Shown piece by piece: positions 1,152-28,438 of a stretch of DNA of 64,000 nt. Below the pieces are notes generated by a model. That model was not told the origin of the DNA. It worked only from the letters and a program-made list of their open reading frames with translations, and did not search any database. The DNA comes from an uncultured Burkholderiales bacterium (GTDB lineage: Bacteria > Pseudomonadota > Gammaproteobacteria > Burkholderiales > Burkholderiaceae_C), in NCBI GenBank assembly GCA_903828695.1, contig CAIKNE010000133.1, positions 1 to 64,000 on the forward strand, given 5' to 3'. The position numbers were made by a program, and so were the translations under genes. Within the stretch, counting starts at the first letter, position 1; every line of letters starts with the position of its first letter.

Positions 1152-2600
1152 ATGAGGCAATATTCATCTATTTCGGGTATTCGATTACTGCTACCTTCTG
1201 AGAAGGCTAGGAACCAATTCCAAAATACGCTATTTTTATTCCTAACCTGCCTCTCATTTTTCGTTACCAATCATGCACAAGCATTACCCACCTTTGCAAG
1301 GCAAACAGGACAGAGTTGCGTAGCCTGTCACGCGGGAGGGCAATTTCCTGAGTTAACCCCCTATGGTCGAATCTTCAAACTCACTGGGTACACCATTGGC
1401 ACCCAAGGAAATCCTTTCTCAGGGTTGGTACTTGCCGAAGTTACGCAAAACAAAAATAACATTGACTCCGCAACGGGAACCATCGTTACTCAAAACAATA
1501 CACCCATTATCCCAACTGGCAGCGTCTTCATAGCGGGCAAGTTAACTGACAACATTGGCGGTTTTGCTCAAATCACTTACAACGTATATGACCACCAAGA
1601 TACAGCATCCCCCCCACAATGGAGAGGTAGACTTGTATCAGACAATACCGATCTGCGCTATGTAAATCGGTCTCTTGATTCCAACAACGATCTTATACTG
1701 GGAATTACGGTCAATAACAATCCTAGTGTTCAAGATGTCTGGAACAGCTCACCGGGTTGGAACTTCCCATATGTATCCTCCTCTGGAGGAGGTACTGCTT
1801 ACAGCTTACCCAAACCCATCCTCGAGCGCGGCTTTGGAAGCCCCGCCGCAGGAGTGGGAGGATACGTTTTTTGGAATAAATCTCTCTACGCCGAGATAAC
1901 TGGATATCAAACAGCAAATGGATTTTGGAAATTCTTAAGTCAAGGTTACAAAATGGGTTCCGCAGCAGAAGCGGGTAGCCCATTGGTATATTCACAAGGT
2001 ATCAGCCCCTACGCCAGAGTCGCATACTCCCATGAATGGAAAGACCAGAATGCGATGATTGGACTGATTGGGATGAATGCGAATATCTATCCAGTTGATT
2101 CAAATAATCTTCCAGCCTTTGGACCTGTTGTTCATTACAACGACAAAGGTATCGATGGTCAGTATCAATACTTGTTAGAACCACATACCTTTACTTCACA
2201 AGTGCGCTATGTCAGAGAAACTATTAATGATGACACTGCTCAGGCATATGCCAACTCTGACACTCTAAACTCAATTTTTACCAAGGTAACTTATGTTTAC
2301 AGAAATCAATACGGTGCAAATATAGCCTACAGAAAAATCACAGGATCTAGTGATTCGGGCGCTTACCCCACATTGCTACAAAATCCAACCGCATCCAGTT
2401 ATTCCACCAGCGCCAGGAATTCTCCCAATACGAAGCTGTGGACGCCTGAGGTATTTTGGTTACCACTTCAAAACCTCCGAATTGGGCTTCAGTACAACCT
2501 ATACACCGAGTACCTGGGCGCTGCAAGCAATTACGACGGATATAAAAGAAATGCATCAGACAACAATTCGGCATATTTATATGCTTGGGTTGCATTTTAA
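1152..2600 (+). CDS. Mono-heme cytochrome c fused to predicted outer-membrane beta-barrel (Cyc2-like fused cytochrome-porin)
   Basis: Signal-peptide-like N-terminus, single CVACH heme motif in PTFARQTGQSCVACHAGGQFPELTPYGRIFKLTGYT, long N/Y/S-rich remainder ending in an aromatic residue (YAWVAF). Confidence 0.7.
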   Translation: MRQYSSISGIRLLLPSEKARNQFQNTLFLFLTCLSFFVTNHAQALPTFARQTGQSCVACHAGGQFPELTPYGRIFKLTGYTIGTQGNPFSGLVLAEVTQNKNNIDSATGTIVTQNNTPIIPTGSVFIAGKLTDNIGGFAQITYNVYDHQDTASPPQWRGRLVSDNTDLRYVNRSLDSNNDLILGITVNNNPSVQDVWNSSPGWNFPYVSSSGGGTAYSLPKPILERGFGSPAAGVGGYVFWNKSLYAEITGYQTANGFWKFLSQGYKMGSAAEAGSPLVYSQGISPYARVAYSHEWKDQNAMIGLIGMNANIYPVDSNNLPAFGPVVHYNDKGIDGQYQYLLEPHTFTSQVRYVRETINDDTAQAYANSDTLNSIFTKVTYVYRNQYGANIAYRKITGSSDSGAYPTLLQNPTASSYSTSARNSPNTKLWTPEVFWLPLQNLRIGLQYNLYTEYLGAASNYDGYKRNASDNNSAYLYAWVAF

Positions 2601-2612
2601 ATAGGAGTCATC

Positions 2613-3263
2613 ATGATTAAAACTAAACTGCACCTTTTAAAAACAACCCTAACCGCATTATTTTGTGCTTCACTTGTCGCTTGTGTAAGTCCAGATAAAG
2701 GTAGAAACTTAAACGATCCAAGCATAAGTGGGGTAGATATTGCTAAGCAGTCCTGCTCTAACTGTCACGGGTTGAATGGACAATCTATTTCTCAACAATT
2801 TCCCAAACTCGCGGGCCAACAATTAGATTACATCAAAGCACAGTTAACGGACTTTAAGGGGCATGTTCGCAAAGATATCAACGGAACTCAGTATATGTGG
2901 GGTATAACGAACCTTACCACCAAGCAAGTTGAAGAACTTGCGGTATATTTTTCTACACAGCCTGCGATGAAAGGCACTGGAGTCCGAGGTCCCGATTTTG
3001 CGTTGGGTGAGTCTATTTTCAAAAACGGATTGCCCTCGCAAGGCGTATTGTCTTGTAACAGTTGTCATGGCCCAGAAGCTTTAGGCGTTGCTGAAATCCC
3101 CAGACTTGCCGGGCAGCACAGTAACTATCTTTATAAACAAATCATGGTGTTTAAGATGACGGATGATCGCCCACGAGGACAAGCGATGAAGCAAATTATT
3201 CACAATATGAACGAAGATCAAGCAAAGGCTGTTGCGAGTTACTTATCTTACCTGGACTTGTAA
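2613..3263 (+). CDS. Di-heme cytochrome c (c4/c553 type), predicted lipoprotein
   Basis: Two heme motifs (CSNCH, CNSCH), GLNGQ...FPKLAGQ and IPRLAGQH repeats typical of c4; lipobox-like SLVAC. Confidence 0.85.
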   Translation: MIKTKLHLLKTTLTALFCASLVACVSPDKGRNLNDPSISGVDIAKQSCSNCHGLNGQSISQQFPKLAGQQLDYIKAQLTDFKGHVRKDINGTQYMWGITNLTTKQVEELAVYFSTQPAMKGTGVRGPDFALGESIFKNGLPSQGVLSCNSCHGPEALGVAEIPRLAGQHSNYLYKQIMVFKMTDDRPRGQAMKQIIHNMNEDQAKAVASYLSYLDL

Positions 3264-3420
3264 GTCTACTTGCTAGCTAGAATTATTTCTATGATACGGT
3301 GACTTCTATCGATGGGTCATGAGTATGAGTATAAAAACCTGAAGTCATGAACTACTTCAAGGAAAAATCAGATGCTTTAAAATCTACTTTTGATTTTTTT
3401 AAAGGTTTTCTAAATACTTG

Positions 3421-4203
3421 ATGGATACAGTTTTTAATTGCACTCAGTGCGGAAAGTGTTGTCACGATTTAAATATACCTCTAACCATCTCAGAAGCTAA
3501 AGATTGGCTACTCAGGGGACATAAGCTCAAAATATTGACCGAAGCCACGCCCTGGATAAATGATGTTCAAAGCACTGATGATTTGTTGCTTCGTAAAAAG
3601 TCATTAACTTTTCAAGCTCAAAGTGGTGCACTCTCAATACGAGTACTTGTATCACTCGTGGGTTATTTTCAAGGTGGATGTCCAAATTTAGACTCGAATC
3701 TAAACTGCACCATCTATAGCGTCAGACCCTTGACCTGTCGTATATACCCCTTTGAGATGAATCCCAAAATCATCTTAAATCCGAAAAATAAACTTTGTCC
3801 TAGCGAAGCATGGCAAACAAATGAAAATACCAGTGCTTTGAATACCGCCAATCAAATCTTCATAATTGACTCATATACCAAGTCCAATATAGAAAAGATA
3901 TACACAACTAGCGTAGATAGTGTTACTGCCAAGATGTTAATTTGCAAAGAACTTGGTATCTGTACAAGCTCCTTATCCAATGACGGCTACCTGTTTCATT
4001 TCCCTGATCAGGAAAAGCTGTCGGGTATTTTAGATAAGTTTTCCTTAAGGGACGCTTCATCGGCCCCCAATGCACCAGATGATGTTGACTGGATTATCTA
4101 TACCCAAAAAGCAGTTACCCTTAATGATCTGCAAGCGATAGGCTCCAATGCCGCCTACCCCAATCAGCACAGCATAAGTCCAGAAGAATTCATAACCCTA
4201 TGA
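3421..4203 (+). CDS. YkgJ family cysteine-cluster protein
   Basis: CTQCGKCCHDL N-terminus, CPNLDSNLNCTIYSVRPLTCRIYPFE motif; ATG at 3421 preferred over TTG at 3418. Confidence 0.75.
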   Translation: MDTVFNCTQCGKCCHDLNIPLTISEAKDWLLRGHKLKILTEATPWINDVQSTDDLLLRKKSLTFQAQSGALSIRVLVSLVGYFQGGCPNLDSNLNCTIYSVRPLTCRIYPFEMNPKIILNPKNKLCPSEAWQTNENTSALNTANQIFIIDSYTKSNIEKIYTTSVDSVTAKMLICKELGICTSSLSNDGYLFHFPDQEKLSGILDKFSLRDASSAPNAPDDVDWIIYTQKAVTLNDLQAIGSNAAYPNQHSISPEEFITL

Positions 4204-9439: not shown

Positions 9440-9544
9440 ATGGACCTTACGTACATTTCCAGCATCTTTGCGCTCTGGCTCTTAACCGCTTGGTTGATCT
9501 CGGGCTTTGACAAACTAACCAGCCCCAATGGAGGTCAATCGTGA
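9440..9544 (+). CDS. Small hydrophobic ORF (34 aa) preceding kdpF
   Basis: [37 protein letters not shown]-like TTTAGGAGAAATCC; stop overlaps GTG start of kdpF (GTGA). Not in the supplied ORF track. Confidence 0.6.
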
Positions 9545-9639
9545 ACGGTCAAGATCTAATGTATTTGATTGGTGGAGTTTGCTCCCTATTTCTTGTGGTT
9601 TACCTAGTTTACGCATTAATCTATGCGGAGGAGTTTTAA
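9541..9639 (+). CDS. kdpF: K+-transporting ATPase subunit F (32 aa)
   Basis: [45 protein letters not shown]-terminus typical of KdpF; TAATG overlap with kdpA. Confidence 0.8.
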
Positions 9640-11438
9640 TGAGTACATCAGCTTGGGGGCAATTAATCCTTTTCTTGGTGGTGCTGTTTTTTACGGCCTC
9701 ACCCCTAGGAGCTTGGATCACCAAAGTCTACAACGGAGAATTACCCAAAGTATTTCTAAAAGTAGAAGATTACATTTACAGGGCATTAGGCACTTCGGTT
9801 GACAAATCGATGAATTGGTCGCATTACGCCTACGCCCTCGTGGCGTTTAATGCAGTGGGTGTTTTATTCGTATACGCCGTTCAGCGCCTGCAGGGTATTT
9901 TGCCATTCAACCCCGCGGGGATGACAGCACCTACTGCTGATCTAGCCTTTGATACTGCAGTTAGTTTTGTGACCAACACAAACTGGCAAAGTTATGTGGG
10001 CGAGGCAACTATGAGCTATCTTACTCAGATGCTTGCGCTGACAGTTCAAAACTTCTTCTCAGCTGCAACCGGCATTGCCGTTGTGTTTGCATTGTTTAGG
10101 GGCTTTACGGGCAAATCAACAAAAAGTCTTGGCAATTTCTGGGTTGATATGACCCGCATTACTGCTTGGATTTTGTTGCCCATGTCGATCGTTTTTGCGG
10201 TCTTTCTCAATAGCCAAGGTGTGATCCAAAATTTTGATGCCTATAAGGAAGCTACGACCATTGAGACTACCATATACCAGGAGCCTAAATTAGGCGCTGA
10301 TGGGCAGCCACTCAAAGATGAGAAAGGCAACCCCATCACCGTGAATGCTAAAACCAATCAACAAGTGATTGCAATGGGACCCGTTGCATCGCAAGAAGCG
10401 ATCAAGATGCTTGGCACTAACGGCGGTGGATTCTTTAACGCCAACTCAGCTCACCCTTTTGAGAACCCAACTGCGCTGACTAACTTTCTTCAGATGATCT
10501 CAATTTTCTTGATCCCAGCAGCTCTGTGCTTTGCCTTTGGATCGGTGGTAGGAGATATGCGCCAAGGAGTAGCAATCTTAGCGGCGATGACGATTATTTT
10601 TGTGGTGGCCGTTGTTGTTACAACGAACGCAGAGCAAGTCGGTAATCCGCTTTTGACGCCCCTTGGTGTGGATCAAACCATGAGCACCTTCCAATCAGGT
10701 GGCAATATGGAGGGTAAGGAGGTCAGATTTGGAGTCAACGCATCTTCACTCTTTGCCGTGATCACTACTTCGGCCTCCTGCGGCGCAGTGAACACCATGC
10801 ACGACTCCTTAACACCCATGGGCGGCCTGGTAACCCTCATCATGATGCAACTCGGAGAGGTAGTCTTCGGTGGAGTCGGCACAGGTCTATACAGTATGCT
10901 GATATTCGCAATCCTTGCGGTATTTATCTCCGGCCTGATGATTGGAAGGACTCCGGAGTACTTGGGCAAGAAAATTGAATCGCATGAAATGAAGTTAACC
11001 TCGATTGCGATTTTGGTTACTCCTATCCTTGTACTAGCAGGAACTGCAATTGCTTTGCTAGCTGACGCAGGAAAAGCGGGGGTTGCAAACCCAGGCGCCC
11101 ACGGTTTCTCTGAAATTCTCTACGCCCTAAGCTCTGCGGGGAACAACAACGGAAGTGCATTTGCGGGACTTTCGGCTAACTCACCCTTTTATAACGTTTT
11201 ACTCGCCGTTGTAATGTGGTTTGGACGCTTTGGAGTCATACTGCCGATCCTTGCAATCGCAGGATCATTGGCGGAGAAAAAACGCCTCACAGTTACCGCT
11301 GGCACGATGCCAACCCATGGACCGCTATTTATTATCCTTTTAGTTGGTACTGTTCTTTTGGTCGGATTACTCAACTATGTGCCTGCACTTGCTCTGGGAC
11401 CCACCGTCGAGCACCTCATGCTTTGGGCCAGTTTGTAA
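9639..11438 (+). CDS. kdpA: K+-transporting ATPase subunit A
   Basis: [37 protein letters not shown]; start MSTSAWGQ rather than ORF-track start. Confidence 0.97.
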
Positions 11439-11463
11439 TTTAATAAATTTACTGAGAACTATT

Positions 11464-13551
11464 ATGAGTAATCAAAAATCACTAACGCTTCTTGACCCAA
11501 ATTTATTAAAGTCATCTTTTGTTGAGTCCTTTAAGAAATTAAGTCCAAAAACTCAATGGAAAAATCCAGTGATGTTTGTGGTTTATCTGGGAAGTATTTT
11601 GACAACTTTCATTGGCTTTATGGTCATGAAAAATCCAGATCAACTCTCCTCCGAGGGGAGCGTCTCTTTTATTTTCCAAATCTCAGCATGGTTGTGGTTT
11701 ACTGTTTTATTTGCCAACTTTGCAGAAAGCTTGGCAGAGGGCAGAAGTAAAGCACAAGCCGCCTCGCTTAGGGGACTAAAGAAAAGTACCATCGCTAAAA
11801 AACTCTCCGCACGAGTGCACTCGTCAAAGTTTGAATCGGTCTTGGCAGAAAATCTTAAAAAAGGCGATGTCGTCCTAGTCGAGACTGGAGATACCATCCC
11901 TTTAGACGGAGAGGTCATTCAAGGGGTTGCGACTGTCGATGAAAGCGCAATTACGGGCGAGTCCGCCCCAGTCGTCAGGGAGTCAGGCGGGGATTTCTCC
12001 TCAGTCACTGGCGGCACCCAGGTCCTATCCGATTGGCTGGTGGTTGAGATTGCAGTAAACCCTGGTGAATCATTTCTCGACAGAATGATCAGTATGGTTG
12101 AGGGTGCTAAGAGACAAAAGACCCCCAACGAAATCGCACTCACCATTTTGCTTGTTGCACTAACCATCGTCTTTCTGATCGTAACTGTTACTTTGTTACC
12201 CTTCTCTGCATTCAGCGTAGAAGTCGCGCAGGCGGGATCCGTCGTTAGCATCACCTCCCTTATTGCTCTTCTCGTATGTCTAATCCCAACTACCATTGGC
12301 GGGCTGCTCTCGGCTGTTGGAGTAGCGGGTATGAGTCGTATGATGCAGGCCAACGTGATTGCTACCTCTGGACGAGCGGTAGAGGCGGCGGGTGACGTAG
12401 ATGTCTTGATGCTGGATAAAACGGGGACGATCACTTTTGGAAACAGACAGGCTGCGGCCTTTATACCCTCCACTGGCGTGTCCGTCATTCAACTTGCTGA
12501 ATGCGCTGTATGGGCCTCGCAAGCAGATGAAACACCTGAGGGGAGAAGTATCGTCGTGCTTGCTCAAAAACTAGGAAATATTCATCCTTTGCAAGGCGAG
12601 ATTTTTGAAGTCCCCTTCACGGCTCAAACCCGTATGAGCGGAATGGATGTAAAGCAAATGGACGGCACAATTCGCTCGCTCAGAAAGGGAGCTGTTGACT
12701 CAGTCAAAAAATATGTGGAGTCCATGGGAAGCATCTTTCCCGCCGATATGGTTCGCATGGCAGATGAGGTGTCTCGTAAAGGTAGCACCCCACTTGCAGT
12801 GATAGACGGCACCACAGCTCTAGGAATCATTGAGCTCAAAGATATCGTAAAGCCCGGCATCAGTGAGCGCTTTGCAGAGCTTAGGAAGATGGGCATTAAA
12901 ACCGTGATGATCACAGGTGATAATAAACTAACTGCAGCCGCAATCGCAGCCGAGGCGGGTGTGGATAGTTTCTTGGCAGAGGCAACACCCGAGCAGAAAT
13001 TAAAGATGATTAGGGATTTCCAAGCTGAGGGCAGGCTGGTTGCAATGACGGGGGACGGTACCAATGACGCGCCTGCACTCGCTCAAGCCGACGTCGCAGT
13101 TGCTATGAACAGCGGAACACAGGCCGCCAAGGAAGCAGGCAACATGGTGGACTTAGATTCCAACCCCACCAAATTGATGGAGATTGTCGAGACAGGTAAA
13201 GCACTGCTGATGACTCGGGGGTCACTAACGACCTTCTCAATTGCCAACGATGTTGCAAAATATTTTGCAATATTACCAGCCATCTTTATCACGACATATC
13301 CCCAGTTGGCCAGCTTAAATGTCATGCATCTGACAAGTCCAAGCTCGGCTATCTTATCGGCCGTTATTTTTAACGCATTGATTATCATCTTCTTAATTCC
13401 TTTAGCGCTGAAGGGTGTTGAGTACAGAGCCGTGGGTGCAGCTGCCCTGCTCAGGCGAAACCTTTTGATTTACGGATTAGGCGGCTTGATCGTTCCATTT
13501 ATTGGTATTAAGGTTATTGATGTGTTGCTTTCCCTAGTGACAACTCTTTAA
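11464..13551 (+). CDS. kdpB: K+-transporting P-type ATPase subunit B
   Basis: [37 protein letters not shown]; start MSNQKSLT. Confidence 0.97.
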
Positions 13552-13580
13552 TAACTTCACCCTAATAACAAAGATATATT

Positions 13581-14153
13581 ATGAAAAACATTATTCGACC
13601 TGTCCTTGTGCTGTTCACCCTGCTTACTGTGTTAACAGGGCTCATTTACCCCTTACTTATCACTGAGATTGGTCAAGTATTCTTTGCCAGCGCCTCCTCG
13701 GGTAGCTTGGTTTACAAAGGGGATCAATTAATTGGATCTGAATTGATCGGTCAAAACTTTGCTGAACCTAAATACTTTTGGTCTAGGCCCTCTGCTACTG
13801 GACCCATGCCCTACAACGCATCTGCCTCTAGTGGATCCAACCTAGGGCCTTTGAACCCAGCGTTAACCGACGCAGTTAAGTCTAGAATAGAGGCCTTAAA
13901 GGCGAGCGACCCCAACAATAAACTCCCCGTCCCCGTGGACTTGATCACTGCATCAGCCAGCGGACTGGATCCTCACATCAGCGCCGCAGCAGCCCTTTAC
14001 CAGGCGCACCGCGTAGCGAAGGCCCGCAAACTCTCGCCTGCAGAAGTCGTGACCCTGGTTGAGCACTCCATTGAGCACCCTTGGGTTCGTTGGTTGGGTG
14101 AGGAAAAAGTAAATGTCCTAAAGCTCAACCTAGCTTTAGATCAGCTTAGATAA
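13581..14153 (+). CDS. kdpC: K+-transporting ATPase subunit C
   Basis: GSELIGQNFAEPKYFWSRPSATGPMPYNASASSGSNLGP. Confidence 0.96.
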   Translation: MKNIIRPVLVLFTLLTVLTGLIYPLLITEIGQVFFASASSGSLVYKGDQLIGSELIGQNFAEPKYFWSRPSATGPMPYNASASSGSNLGPLNPALTDAVKSRIEALKASDPNNKLPVPVDLITASASGLDPHISAAAALYQAHRVAKARKLSPAEVVTLVEHSIEHPWVRWLGEEKVNVLKLNLALDQLR

Positions 14154-14169
14154 CAAGTGAGAGGTACCC

Positions 14170-16932
14170 GTGGCTATTTCTCCTTTTACGAGACCTCAAC
14201 CAGACGCTCTTTTAGAGAAAATAAAGGAGGAGGAGTTAAGGGCTAAAAGGGGAAAACTCAGAATCTACTTCGGTGCAAGTGCTGGCGTAGGTAAGACATT
14301 CGCTATGCTCAACGCGGCTCAGACCGAGCGCCAGCGTCAAAAGCACATCATGATTGGTCTGATCGAGACGCACAACAGGCGTGAGACACAGGCTTTGGTG
14401 AACGGCATTAATAAAATCCCGCTCAAAGAAATAGAGCACAAGGGGCGAATACTCTACGAGTTTGATCTGGACGCAGCACTTCTAGCAAAACCAGACATTA
14501 TCTTAGTCGATGAGCTGGCTCACTCTAACGCCCCGGGTTGTCGTCACCCCAAGCGCTGGCAAGATGTTCAAGAGCTTCTTGATGCTGGAATAGACGTCTG
14601 GACAGCTTTGAATGTTCAACACTTGGAGAGTTTGAACGGAACTATCGGAACCATTACGGGAGTAAGGGTCCATGAGACTGTGCCAGATGTGATTATTGAA
14701 AAAGCAGATGAGGTCATACTGGTTGATGTCACTGCAGATGAGTTGATCAACCGCTTAAAAGCGGGTAAGGTATATATAGCGAAACAGGCTGAACAGGCTG
14801 AAAATAATTTCTTTAAAAAAGGCAATTTAATTGCGCTTAGAGAAATAGCGCTTCGCAAAACAGCTGAACGCGTTGGAGACGATGTACGTAGTTATCGAGT
14901 TGAAAATTCAAGCGCCTCGAACTCCAAGGGCGTCGTGGACGCCCCCTCATGGCACACCTCACAGACCCTTCTGGTCTGCGTAGGCCCTGCCGAGGGAGCT
15001 GAGCACGCAGTCAGAAGCGGTGCACGCTTGGCCGCTCAACTCAGTGTTAAATGGTACGTCGCCTACGTAGAGACGCCTGCCCTACAACGATTACCCTCTA
15101 AGAAGCGCGATAAAGTCCTGACCATCTTAAAGCTTGCCGAGGAGTTAGGTGCAAGCACCTCTGTTTTGACGAGCGATAACATCGCCAGCGCCCTATACGA
15201 GCACGCACACCAACTGAACTGCGCAACTCTTTTGGTCGGACGCCCCGGGGAATATAGATTTGCAAACCTGATCCGAACCTTTAGGCCCACTTTGACGCGT
15301 CAGTTGGCCATCATGGCTCCTGAGATCGATATCATCGAGATCAGCACGCCCAACAGCTCGCGACGCATTAATCCTTACTTAGGCAAAGAGCTCTTAGAAG
15401 AATCAAGCTCTCTTTTTGAAGGCATCCATTGGCCCAAGTACGGTTGGACAGTTGCAACCGGCATATTCACCACATCGATTGCTTATCCATTTTCTAGCAT
15501 TTTCGATCAAGCCAATGTCGTCATGCTCTTTTTGCTCTACGTTGTGATTTGCTCGGTTAAATACGGTAGACGACCCGCAATGGTTGCGGCAGTGCTTGCC
15601 GTATTGTGCTTTGATTTCTTTTTTGTTCCCCCAATATTCTCATTTGCGATATCGGATGCACAGTATTTGTTTACCTTTGCGGTGATGTTAGGTGTTGGGC
15701 TGCTGGTTGGCCAACTCACAGCGAATCTAACTTATTCAGCCCGGATTTCAGCCAGTCGCGAACAAAAAACAAATTACCTATTCGAATTAACGAAAGAGTT
15801 ATCCGCTGCTTTGCATTACAAGGAAGTTATTCAAATTGGTGAGTCAACAATTAGCAGAGTATTTGGTGAAGGCGCAAGAATATTTATCACAGACTTGGAC
15901 AATGTTTTGGACGTAACGCCTCCTGTTCCTGAGGATTTTGATGAAAGCATTGCCGATTGGGCTTTTAACAACAGCAAGTCTGCGGGATTCGCAACCAACA
16001 CACTCTCTGCTTCAAATTGGCACTACGTTCCTTTGGTAGCCCCCATGAACACACGTGGTGTCTTGGCTGTTAAACCATCCAACCCGCGTTGGCTATTGAT
16101 ACCTGAGCAAATCAAACTCCTTGATACGATGGCACGCCAAATATCGATCGCACTTGAGCGGGTTCATTACGTGGAGATCGCTCAACAAACCACAGTTGAG
16201 ATGGAGTCAGAGCATCTGCGCAATACACTGCTCGCGACCATCTCTCATGACTTAAGGACTCCTCTCACCTCACTGATTGGATTTGCGGAGAGCTTGACTC
16301 GTTCTCAGCCCCCACTCAATGTGCAGCAAAGTAGTGCAGCCAAGGCGATTCATGATGAGGCCAAGGGTCTTTTTGCATTAGTCTCTAATTTACTTGAGAT
16401 GGCGAAACTCCAAAGTGGTAAAGTCAATCTTCGAAGGGATTGGTACTCAATAGAGGAGATTGTGGGCACCTCCATTCGTCTTTGCCAGCAATCTTTGGGA
16501 GAGTTTTATGTCTCCAGTCACATCCCAGTCGACCTCCCGCTCATACGCTGTGATGCTGTTTTGATGGAACGCGCATTCGTCAATTTAATTGAAAACGCAG
16601 TCAAATACGCCAAACCCCATAGTGTTGACACGAAGATCGTTATCAATGCGCATATCACTGATGATCATTTCGCCATCTACGTACGTGATTACGGCCCTGG
16701 ACTGTCTGGGCCGAAGAATGCAAAAGATAATTTCTTATTTGAAAAATTCACAAGAGGTCAAACAGAATCTTCAACTCGCGGGGTGGGTCTAGGGTTGTCT
16801 ATCGTTAAAGCCATTGTCGAAGCACACGACGGTACAATCACGGCGAAGAATGCGAGCGATAAGGGTGCTATCTTCACCATCAACCTCCCCCTTGAATCTC
16901 AGCCCAATCCTCCCACTGACCCAACCCATTAG
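14170..16932 (+). CDS. kdpD: Sensor histidine kinase KdpD
   Basis: GKLRIYFGASAGVGKTFAML, VDELAHSNAPG, DLRTPLTSLIGFAESL; GTG start. Confidence 0.97.
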   Translation: MAISPFTRPQPDALLEKIKEEELRAKRGKLRIYFGASAGVGKTFAMLNAAQTERQRQKHIMIGLIETHNRRETQALVNGINKIPLKEIEHKGRILYEFDLDAALLAKPDIILVDELAHSNAPGCRHPKRWQDVQELLDAGIDVWTALNVQHLESLNGTIGTITGVRVHETVPDVIIEKADEVILVDVTADELINRLKAGKVYIAKQAEQAENNFFKKGNLIALREIALRKTAERVGDDVRSYRVENSSASNSKGVVDAPSWHTSQTLLVCVGPAEGAEHAVRSGARLAAQLSVKWYVAYVETPALQRLPSKKRDKVLTILKLAEELGASTSVLTSDNIASALYEHAHQLNCATLLVGRPGEYRFANLIRTFRPTLTRQLAIMAPEIDIIEISTPNSSRRINPYLGKELLEESSSLFEGIHWPKYGWTVATGIFTTSIAYPFSSIFDQANVVMLFLLYVVICSVKYGRRPAMVAAVLAVLCFDFFFVPPIFSFAISDAQYLFTFAVMLGVGLLVGQLTANLTYSARISASREQKTNYLFELTKELSAALHYKEVIQIGESTISRVFGEGARIFITDLDNVLDVTPPVPEDFDESIADWAFNNSKSAGFATNTLSASNWHYVPLVAPMNTRGVLAVKPSNPRWLLIPEQIKLLDTMARQISIALERVHYVEIAQQTTVEMESEHLRNTLLATISHDLRTPLTSLIGFAESLTRSQPPLNVQQSSAAKAIHDEAKGLFALVSNLLEMAKLQSGKVNLRRDWYSIEEIVGTSIRLCQQSLGEFYVSSHIPVDLPLIRCDAVLMERAFVNLIENAVKYAKPHSVDTKIVINAHITDDHFAIYVRDYGPGLSGPKNAKDNFLFEKFTRGQTESSTRGVGLGLSIVKAIVEAHDGTITAKNASDKGAIFTINLPLESQPNPPTDPTH

Positions 16933-26473: not shown

Positions 26474-28438
26474 TCAGGCGGGACTGAAAATATAATTGGT
26501 CAGATTAAAAACGATGTAACTGAAAATATAAGCCAAGCCAAAGAGGTAGGTTACAGAGATGATTGGAATTCGCCACCCACCGCTCTCTCGCTTGAGTACT
26601 GCCAGAGTTGATAGACACTGAGGCGCAAAAACAAACCAGGTTAACAATGACAGTGCGGTCGCAAGACTCCACTGCTGACTGATGATGGGGGCCAATGCTG
26701 TAGACAATCCGTCCTCGCCCATAGAAGTGAGGGAATAAACAGTACCCAGTGCGCTGATAGCCACCTCCCTGGCGACCATTCCAGGGATCAAGGAAATACA
26801 GATCTGCCAATTAAAACCGATCGATCCTAAGACCTGACTTAAGTAGCCGCCTAAAATTCCCGCGAATGAATTCTCTATTTGAATGGGCTCTCCGGAGCTT
26901 GGTAATGGGAAGCTGGCTAAGAACCAAATCAAAATAGTCAACAAAAGTATGTTGCCCCCAACTCGTTTAATAAAAATAACAGCTCTTTGTAAAAGACCAA
27001 TTAAGACGTTCCAGGGATTGGGCCACCTGTAGCGCGGTAATTCCATCATGAGGGGGCGAGTCTGTTTACCTGCACGAGTGAGGACTTTGAGCATCCAAGC
27101 CACAAAAAGTGCTGCAAAAATACCGACCAGATAAAGGCCAAACATCACCAACCCTTGGAGCTCAAAGTAACCACCAACGGTGCGTTGCGGGATGAAAGCA
27201 CTAATTAACAAACTGTAAACCGGCAACCTTGCTGAACACGTCATGAGGGGCGCAATGAGCATCGTCACATACCTGTCCCGCATGTTGGGAATGGTTCGCA
27301 TCGCCATAATGCCTGGAATGGCACATGCAAAACTTGAGAGAAGTGGAATGAAGGATCGACCAGAAAGTCCAACAGAGCCCATTAAACGGTCCAAGAGGTA
27401 AGCGGCCCGAGGGAGGTATCCAGATTCTTCGAGGAGGAGGATAAACAAAAACAATATCAGGATCTGAGGTAAAAAAGTAATCACGCCCATCGCGCCGGAT
27501 AAAACTCCGTCAACCACTAAACTTGTCAACCAACCAGCTGCGAAAGTGCTGATGATTTGATCCTTTAAAAATTCATTCAAATCTTTAATCAAATCCATCG
27601 GATAAGTTGACCAAGAAAACATGGCCTGAAAAACCGTAAATAGAATTGACACCAAAACCAGCGGACCGAACACGGGGTGCAACAAAAATGAGTCGAGACG
27701 ATCGCTGCTTGAGTGATGAACGATTTGGTCGAGTCCGAGCTTTTGCAAAATACTTTGAACTCTAGCGTGATCCGTTTCAATTTGTTGCAACTGAATTGCT
27801 GGATCCTGCGGTTGCTGTGGGTGAGGATCGTTGGAAACACCCCCAATTGTTGAAAAATTGTCTTGAGCCGGGGAACTATCAGCTCTTGGTGCAGCTAGAT
27901 CAGCAAATAGAGTGCGCAGTGACTCTCTTAGCAATGCGTCGCCCCCTTTAGCAATCGCAACCGTTGGGACAACCTGCAGACCCAACTCCTTGGAGAGTGC
28001 AGGTATATCAATCTCGATACCCCGACCTTTGGCCTCATCAATCATGTTTAAAGCGACTACGGTTGGAATTCCCGTTCTTTTGATGGCCAAGACAAAGCGC
28101 AAGCACATTCTTAAATTGGTCGCATCGATCACGCAGACCAATAAATCGGGTTTCCTCTCCCCTTTCGCAACTCCGCGCAAAACATCACATGTGACACGTT
28201 CGTCCGGCGTACGGGGATAAAGACTGTAGGTACCGGGGAGATCAAGGACGCGGAGGCTCTTTTGGTGATCGAGTGTTAATTTTCCCTCCTTACGCTCTAC
28301 GGTTACCCCCGCGTAATTAGCAACATGTTGTTTGCCCCCTGTCAACCGATTGAATAGCGCGGTTTTTCCGCAGTTGGGATTTCCAACCAATGCAACCAAT
28401 TTCCCATGGGGATGAAAGTGAATAATGGATTCGGTCAT
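26474..28438 (-). CDS. feoB: Ferrous iron transporter FeoB
   Basis: VALVGNPNCGKTALFNRLTGGKQHVANYAGVTVERKEG; Gate domains. Confidence 0.96.
   Translation of the reverse strand: MTESIIHFHPHGKLVALVGNPNCGKTALFNRLTGGKQHVANYAGVTVERKEGKLTLDHQKSLRVLDLPGTYSLYPRTPDERVTCDVLRGVAKGERKPDLLVCVIDATNLRMCLRFVLAIKRTGIPTVVALNMIDEAKGRGIEIDIPALSKELGLQVVPTVAIAKGGDALLRESLRTLFADLAAPRADSSPAQDNFSTIGGVSNDPHPQQPQDPAIQLQQIETDHARVQSILQKLGLDQIVHHSSSDRLDSFLLHPVFGPLVLVSILFTVFQAMFSWSTYPMDLIKDLNEFLKDQIISTFAAGWLTSLVVDGVLSGAMGVITFLPQILILFLFILLLEESGYLPRAAYLLDRLMGSVGLSGRSFIPLLSSFACAIPGIMAMRTIPNMRDRYVTMLIAPLMTCSARLPVYSLLISAFIPQRTVGGYFELQGLVMFGLYLVGIFAALFVAWMLKVLTRAGKQTRPLMMELPRYRWPNPWNVLIGLLQRAVIFIKRVGGNILLLTILIWFLASFPLPSSGEPIQIENSFAGILGGYLSQVLGSIGFNWQICISLIPGMVAREVAISALGTVYSLTSMGEDGLSTALAPIISQQWSLATALSLLTWFVFAPQCLSTLAVLKRESGGWRIPIISVTYLFGLAYIFSYIVFNLTNYIFSPA

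Follow-up and report, generated by a model that had tools for sequence, protein, structure and literature searches.

The rus operon of Acidithiobacillus opens with cyc2 and cyc1 (PMC10654088), which encode a Cluster 2 Cyc2 and a diheme c4-type cytochrome, and continues with cup, coxBACD and rus. Both Acidithiobacillus proteins were connected to Burkholderiales homologues by Li et al. (PMC10654088), and genomes of the Leptothrix-Sphaerotilus group, except that of L. ochracea, contain only Cluster 2 cyc2 (PMC11412304). The motif AXPXFAR[QK][TY] was termed unique to Cyc2 by Keffer et al., who also warn that it is uncertain what Cyc2 relatives do when they lie outside Cluster 1 (PMC8406198). For Cluster 1 (Mariprofundus PV-1, Gallionellaceae), the measured potential of PV-1 Cyc2, 208 mV, is consistent with reduction of the protein by Fe(II) at neutral pH, and the barrel of Cyc2 proper is itself a prediction. 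The MtoAB, PioAB and MtrCAB systems resemble Cyc2 in their working, as a porin and heme conduit across the outer membrane, but are built from a separate porin and a decaheme protein.

A cyc2-like gene followed by a cyc1-like gene is present in a 64,000-nucleotide stretch of DNA (the window) from an uncultured Burkholderiales bacterium, starting at base 1 of its contig (C133) in a 3.0 Mb genome of 98% completeness. The features of the pair and of the gene behind it are as follows.

1152..2600, forward strand: cyc2-like gene, 482-aa ORF, assigned from its motif, full-length alignment and tree position
~residues 25-44 of the cyc2-like product: signal peptide
Remainder of the cyc2-like product: monoheme cytochrome segment, then a C-terminal part of ~400 residues, expected to be an outer-membrane barrel
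1317..1331, forward strand: CVACH heme-binding motif, at residue 56 of the cyc2-like product
1332..1355, forward strand: AGGQF loop and PEL, with a 5-residue spacer that marks the clade
2613..3263, forward strand: cyc1-like gene, 216 aa, c4-type diheme cytochrome with a predicted lipid anchor
2673..2684, forward strand: lipobox LVAC, in which the residue after Cys is Val, not Asp
3418..4203, forward strand: CxxCxxCC gene (PF03692, putative zinc- or iron-chelating)

An earlier note on this DNA had given the two ORFs, CVACH at nt 1317-1331 and a gap of 12 nt from the cyc2-like stop to the cyc1-like start, all of which proved right when re-read base for base, and had counted exactly one CXXCH in the 482-aa protein, where CVACH is indeed the only one. 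The N-terminus of this protein, ALPTFARQTGQSCVACHAGGQFPEL, contains both AXPXFAR[QK][TY] and PXL: ALPTFARQT occupies residues 44-52, just before the heme site, and PEL (residues 66-68) follows CXXCH. The length of 482 aa lies within the range used for Cyc2 (>=365 aa), a single CXXCH is likewise expected of Cyc2, and the last residue is F, the aromatic terminus remarked on earlier. Across homologous loci the heme segment is nearly invariant. Searches of Pfam, NCBIfam and PDB sequences with the 482-aa protein gave no match, and a 30-sequence family profile matched no PDB chain or Pfam family.

A functional reference was sought by searching the class for rusticyanin and reading the neighbourhood of a strong match (L144), where the gene row is cyc2, a cupredoxin-like gene, coxB, coxA, coxC, ctaA, ctaB and rus, the names being taken from the translations and not from model matches. 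Residues 29 to 480 of the window protein align with the L144 Cyc2-like protein at 29% identity with an E value of 1e-57 (the blastp threshold for Cyc2 is 1e-5 or better), and the alignment takes in the C-terminal GASSNYDG..RNASDNN segment. The Cyc2 motif and this end-to-end homology support the Cyc2-family fused cytochrome-porin proposed in the earlier note, and judged by them the 482-aa protein belongs to the family. The L144 locus itself (G1255:C3, 9056-17848) is a rus-type operon apparently without cyc1 between cyc2 and cup.

By homology with Cyc2, the C-terminal ~400 residues would form an outer-membrane barrel. AlphaFold, run on an alignment of six sequences (the window protein, L003-L006 and a partial L129), returned a model whose pLDDT of 33 is too low for it to count as evidence, although residues 122-481 contain ~15 modelled strands (a 16-strand barrel being the expectation for Cyc2). 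The alternation of hydrophobicity over the clade exceeds that of shuffled sequences (z ~2), which supports a barrel weakly.

The 216-aa product of the second gene contains two CXXCH, at residues 48 and 148, and matches Pfam Cytochrom_C (2.2e-17). Its best solved relative is cytochrome c-552 (PDB 1H1O, 3.5e-29), the Cyc1 of A. ferrooxidans, with other c4 chains trailing (6e-24, 5.5e-21). The alignment with 1H1O extends over both c-type domains and takes in the YMW region and the QAM Met; each domain has the CXXCH and distal Met expected of Cyc1. The NGTQYMWG of the window partner matches NGEIYMW of 1H1O; the two share this unusual D.NG..YMW stretch, which the c4 chain 6Q2U does not have. Where Cyc1 is a non-lipidated soluble carrier with a cleaved signal, the signal of the 216-aa protein contains the predicted lipobox LVAC, and the partner thus appears lipid-anchored, bearing out the two-heme c4-like lipoprotein of the earlier note. 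In E. coli, lipoproteins without Asp at position +2 are sorted to the outer membrane, and by this rule the window partner would be sorted there as well. A limited search of the open-access literature found no mention of a lipid-anchored Cyc1 adjoining Cyc2.

Since the Acidithiobacillus rus operon begins with cyc2-cyc1, the pairing of cyc2 with a c4 gene is not new in kind, and the window shares with it the gene order, the Cyc2 motif and the YMW stretch of Cyc1. It differs in that the pair is followed by other genes, no PF00127 copper protein was found in the genome at the thresholds used, and the partner has a predicted lipobox, unlike Acidithiobacillus Cyc1. The spacer between CH and PxL also differs, with 5 residues in the window, 3 in the rus-operon protein read (L144) and 4 (FQHF) in Cluster 1-like loci, showing that this spacing varies within the Cyc2 family; the earlier remark that the loop departs from the classical CHFQHFP type was therefore correct.

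In a maximum-likelihood tree of 98 rows, midpoint-rooted so that its deepest branch gives a split and not a direction, the deepest split (100/100) separates proteins with four-residue CH loops (FQHF, FQSF, AQHF) from the rest. The window protein falls on the same side as the rus-operon protein, and the window pair thus lies with the latter and not on the CHFQHFP (Cluster 1-like) side. This would make its placement Cluster 2-like, in agreement with PMC10654088 and PMC11412304. Cluster 1 was compared through the FQHF/FQSF-type loci, taken to be Cluster 1, which resemble the window protein in their signal, FARQT..CXXCH..PxL segment and length, but have the 4-residue loop, are set off by the deepest branch, are similar only over ~120 N-terminal residues, and are mostly without an adjacent Cyc1. 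The four-residue-loop types were found in groups f25, f38 and f79, and in nearly all f79 genomes, as in many of f25 and f38, the family profile also recognises FQHF-type Cyc2-like proteins by their cytochrome segment. An FQSF-type Cyc2-like protein is present in nearly every sampled f79 genome, many having a second, distant copy, a pattern that fits Zetaproteobacteria, which f79 probably represents.

Rows with the loop [AVL]GG[QHEM][FY]P[EQ]L (GG-loop) make up one side of a branch with moderate support (82/89), so that the divergent clade suggested by the earlier note is supported, AGGQF-type spacing marking it across many families. At GG-loop loci, the signal of each adjacent diheme partner ends in a lipobox-like xx[GAS]C, followed by S, A, T, V or I, and never by D. 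Within the non-redundant tree set, diheme partners have the lipobox in 36/36 GG-loop cases versus 0/13 for other loop types, L022 and L095 (Cys in the signal) having been classed by hand as ordinary signals, debatably for L095. Because the GG-loop rows fall on one side of one branch, a single evolutionary event, the lipobox is regarded as a clade trait and not a repeated correlation; when loop type and lipobox were compared by an independent-pairs test, a single independent pair was available, and no statistical correlation is therefore claimed. No diheme partner was detected immediately downstream in 4/40 GG-loop rows (L011, L012 at a contig end, L026 and L099). The motif [YFHM]MWG occurs in nearly all GG-loop diheme partners and most short-loop partners, and is missing from the two partners adjoining four-residue-loop proteins. 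As far as sequence comparison goes, the two window genes encode a Cyc2-Cyc1 pair from a clade that has received little study, distinguished by the predicted lipid anchor found consistently on the partner; the Cyc1-like nature of the partner and the apparent tie of lipidation to the AGGQF-type clade had been missed earlier.

Related loci outside the clade differ in partner. At three-residue-loop loci the signals of the diheme partners are of the ordinary kind. In Caballeronia sp. SBC1, for example, the two-gene layout is the same and the partner is of Cyc1 type, with a HiPIP gene upstream, but the loop is VSF and the partner has an ordinary, cleavable signal with no clear lipobox. FGPQL-loop Cyc2-like proteins are homologous to the window protein over their full length, barrel part included, but have no diheme partner, being followed by a monoheme ORF or by no cytochrome. 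Among cultured bacteria, Ideonella dechloratans fits the GG-loop pattern (AGGQF, then c4 with LAGC), and Paraburkholderia phytofirmans OLGA172 is an exception, with the c4 gene upstream of the AGGQF gene, apart from it and without a lipobox. The OLGA172 AGGQF gene is on plasmid pOLGA1 (L148), with the c4 gene and an ArsR-family regulator gene upstream and a hemerythrin-domain gene downstream.

Homologues of the 482-aa protein were found in 38/301 genomes of the family sample, 83/349 of the order sample and 89/399 of the phylum sample. The two genes stay adjacent in most clade loci, across many families of the order, and the conservation of heme segment and adjacency exceeds chance. The pair was absent from the three other sampled genomes of the genus, as was the trailing CxxCxxCC gene, suggesting that the unit was gained or lost within the genus. 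The CxxCxxCC gene follows the pair in L003 and L006 only and was rejected as a third module member, being missing in L004, L005 and distant loci. The GC content of the pair is slightly low but ordinary, and a direct search for near-identical DNA on plasmids found none. One contig matched in a search of viral contigs: L129 (IMGVR_UViG_3300029955_001365), filed as viral, ends in an FGPQL-type Cyc2-like gene, and may be prophage host flank or a misfiled contig. Rhodoferax MIZ03 was considered as a cultured, Cyc2-bearing iron oxidiser of the family, and was rejected as it is without Cyc2 (PMC8552755).

The host genome contains two heme-copper oxidases, one of the aa3 type, with its large subunit adjoining a subunit II that carries a c-type domain, and one of the CcoN type (cbb3), together with cytochrome c1, so that electrons have a route to oxygen. 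Three further, distant c4-like proteins are also encoded. Neither RuBisCO, nor MtrB/PioB, nor PF00127 copper proteins were found at the thresholds used in this 98% complete genome, where a missed gene is possible. The host is a probable freshwater heterotroph and, with no RuBisCO found, iron oxidation would be an auxiliary electron supply.

We consider it rather probable that the genes form a two-gene Cyc2-Cyc1 unit, in which electrons of Fe(II) pass inward through an outer-membrane heme porin to a lipid-anchored diheme carrier. The first protein would be exported, with one heme c attached near its N-terminus, and would form an outer-membrane porin plugged on its periplasmic side by the heme domain. 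On entering the pore, Fe(II), dissolved or chelated, would reduce the plug heme. The c4-type diheme lipoprotein, probably on the inner leaflet of the outer membrane, would accept the electron and pass it to the aa3-type or cbb3-type oxidase, either directly or by way of further c-type cytochromes of the periplasm, giving a heterotroph supplementary energy or electrons. The outer-membrane electron-transfer pair of the earlier note is thus plausible, supported by the Cyc2 family membership and the Cyc1-like c4 partner. Several points count against the preferred reading: the warning of Keffer et al. on function outside Cluster 1, the low-confidence structure model, an amphipathicity of only z ~2, the lack of a matching solved structure or Pfam family even for the profile, the absence of the gene from the three other sampled genomes of the genus, and the report that in Sideroxydans CL21 iron oxidation is not mirrored by cyc2 expression (PMC12442390).

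The same conduit may serve another substrate or direction (reduced humic quinones, Fe(II)-organic complexes, another metal, or electron export), which we think unlikely, though less so than the other alternatives. The host, with no RuBisCO found, is probably not a lithoautotroph, the heme loop differs from that of Cluster 1, and the nearest named MAG relatives, uncultured Burkholderiales, have isolate names that we take to denote boreal lake samples. Many Cyc2-like genes are also present in a humic bog (PMC6344600). However, the window genes match the Fe(II)-oxidising Cyc2-Cyc1 pair, the rus-operon lineage included, in both homology and gene order, and a pore plugged by one heme is well matched to a donor that is small and dissolved. 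Fe(II) might also be handled mainly for purposes other than energy, for instance to detoxify or sense it at the surface, with the electrons draining into the c4 protein. The heterotrophic look of the genome, the chelating CxxCxxCC gene behind the pair in close relatives, and an Fe(II)-sensor role proposed for Cyc2 (PMC12442390) all point that way, but L004, L005 and more distant loci do not have the CxxCxxCC gene, and sensing needs no dedicated Cyc1-type carrier, which leaves this improbable. A third alternative is that the heme has a structural role, in a porin or periplasmic protein that lies beside an unrelated c4 cytochrome and conducts no electrons. This would suit the failure of AlphaFold to give a confident barrel or heme-pocket model; it is very hard to reconcile with an invariant heme segment and persistent adjacency to a Cyc1-type cytochrome across many families.

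Under the preferred Cyc2-Cyc1 iron-oxidation reading, the GG-loop clade bears on the question of Cyc2 function outside Cluster 1 (PMC8406198), having a dedicated and apparently membrane-fixed partner. A more tentative idea, which we would not expect to hold, is that this clade made the Cyc1 shuttle an outer-membrane lipoprotein, giving heterotrophs a fixed two-protein conduit whose preferred donor might be humics or Fe(II) in organic complexes and not free Fe(II). The clade is found in genomes of many families of the order, with at least one carrier a likely heterotroph, and if active the unit would extend iron-dependent energy gain far beyond the recognised iron oxidisers. It is testable in named cultured carriers, Ideonella dechloratans for the full pair and Paraburkholderia phytofirmans OLGA172 for the first gene.

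The host genome of the window contains a second, divergent Cyc2-like gene (G000:C74:15809-17224, L002; L065 6774-8237; 34% identity), with a CH-LNV-GEL loop in which the Pro of PXL is missing. It is followed immediately by an acyl-carrier-protein-like ORF and by no c4 gene, and nearby (L065 10371-12548) is a gene whose secreted product of 725 aa has a single CXXCH (CQSCH). Within the window, an ORF read by eye only as a FeoB-like ferrous iron transporter (26474-28438, reverse strand) lies ~23 kb from the pair, and ORFs at 9528-16932 read as kdpA, kdpB and kdpD, an ordinary potassium uptake set.
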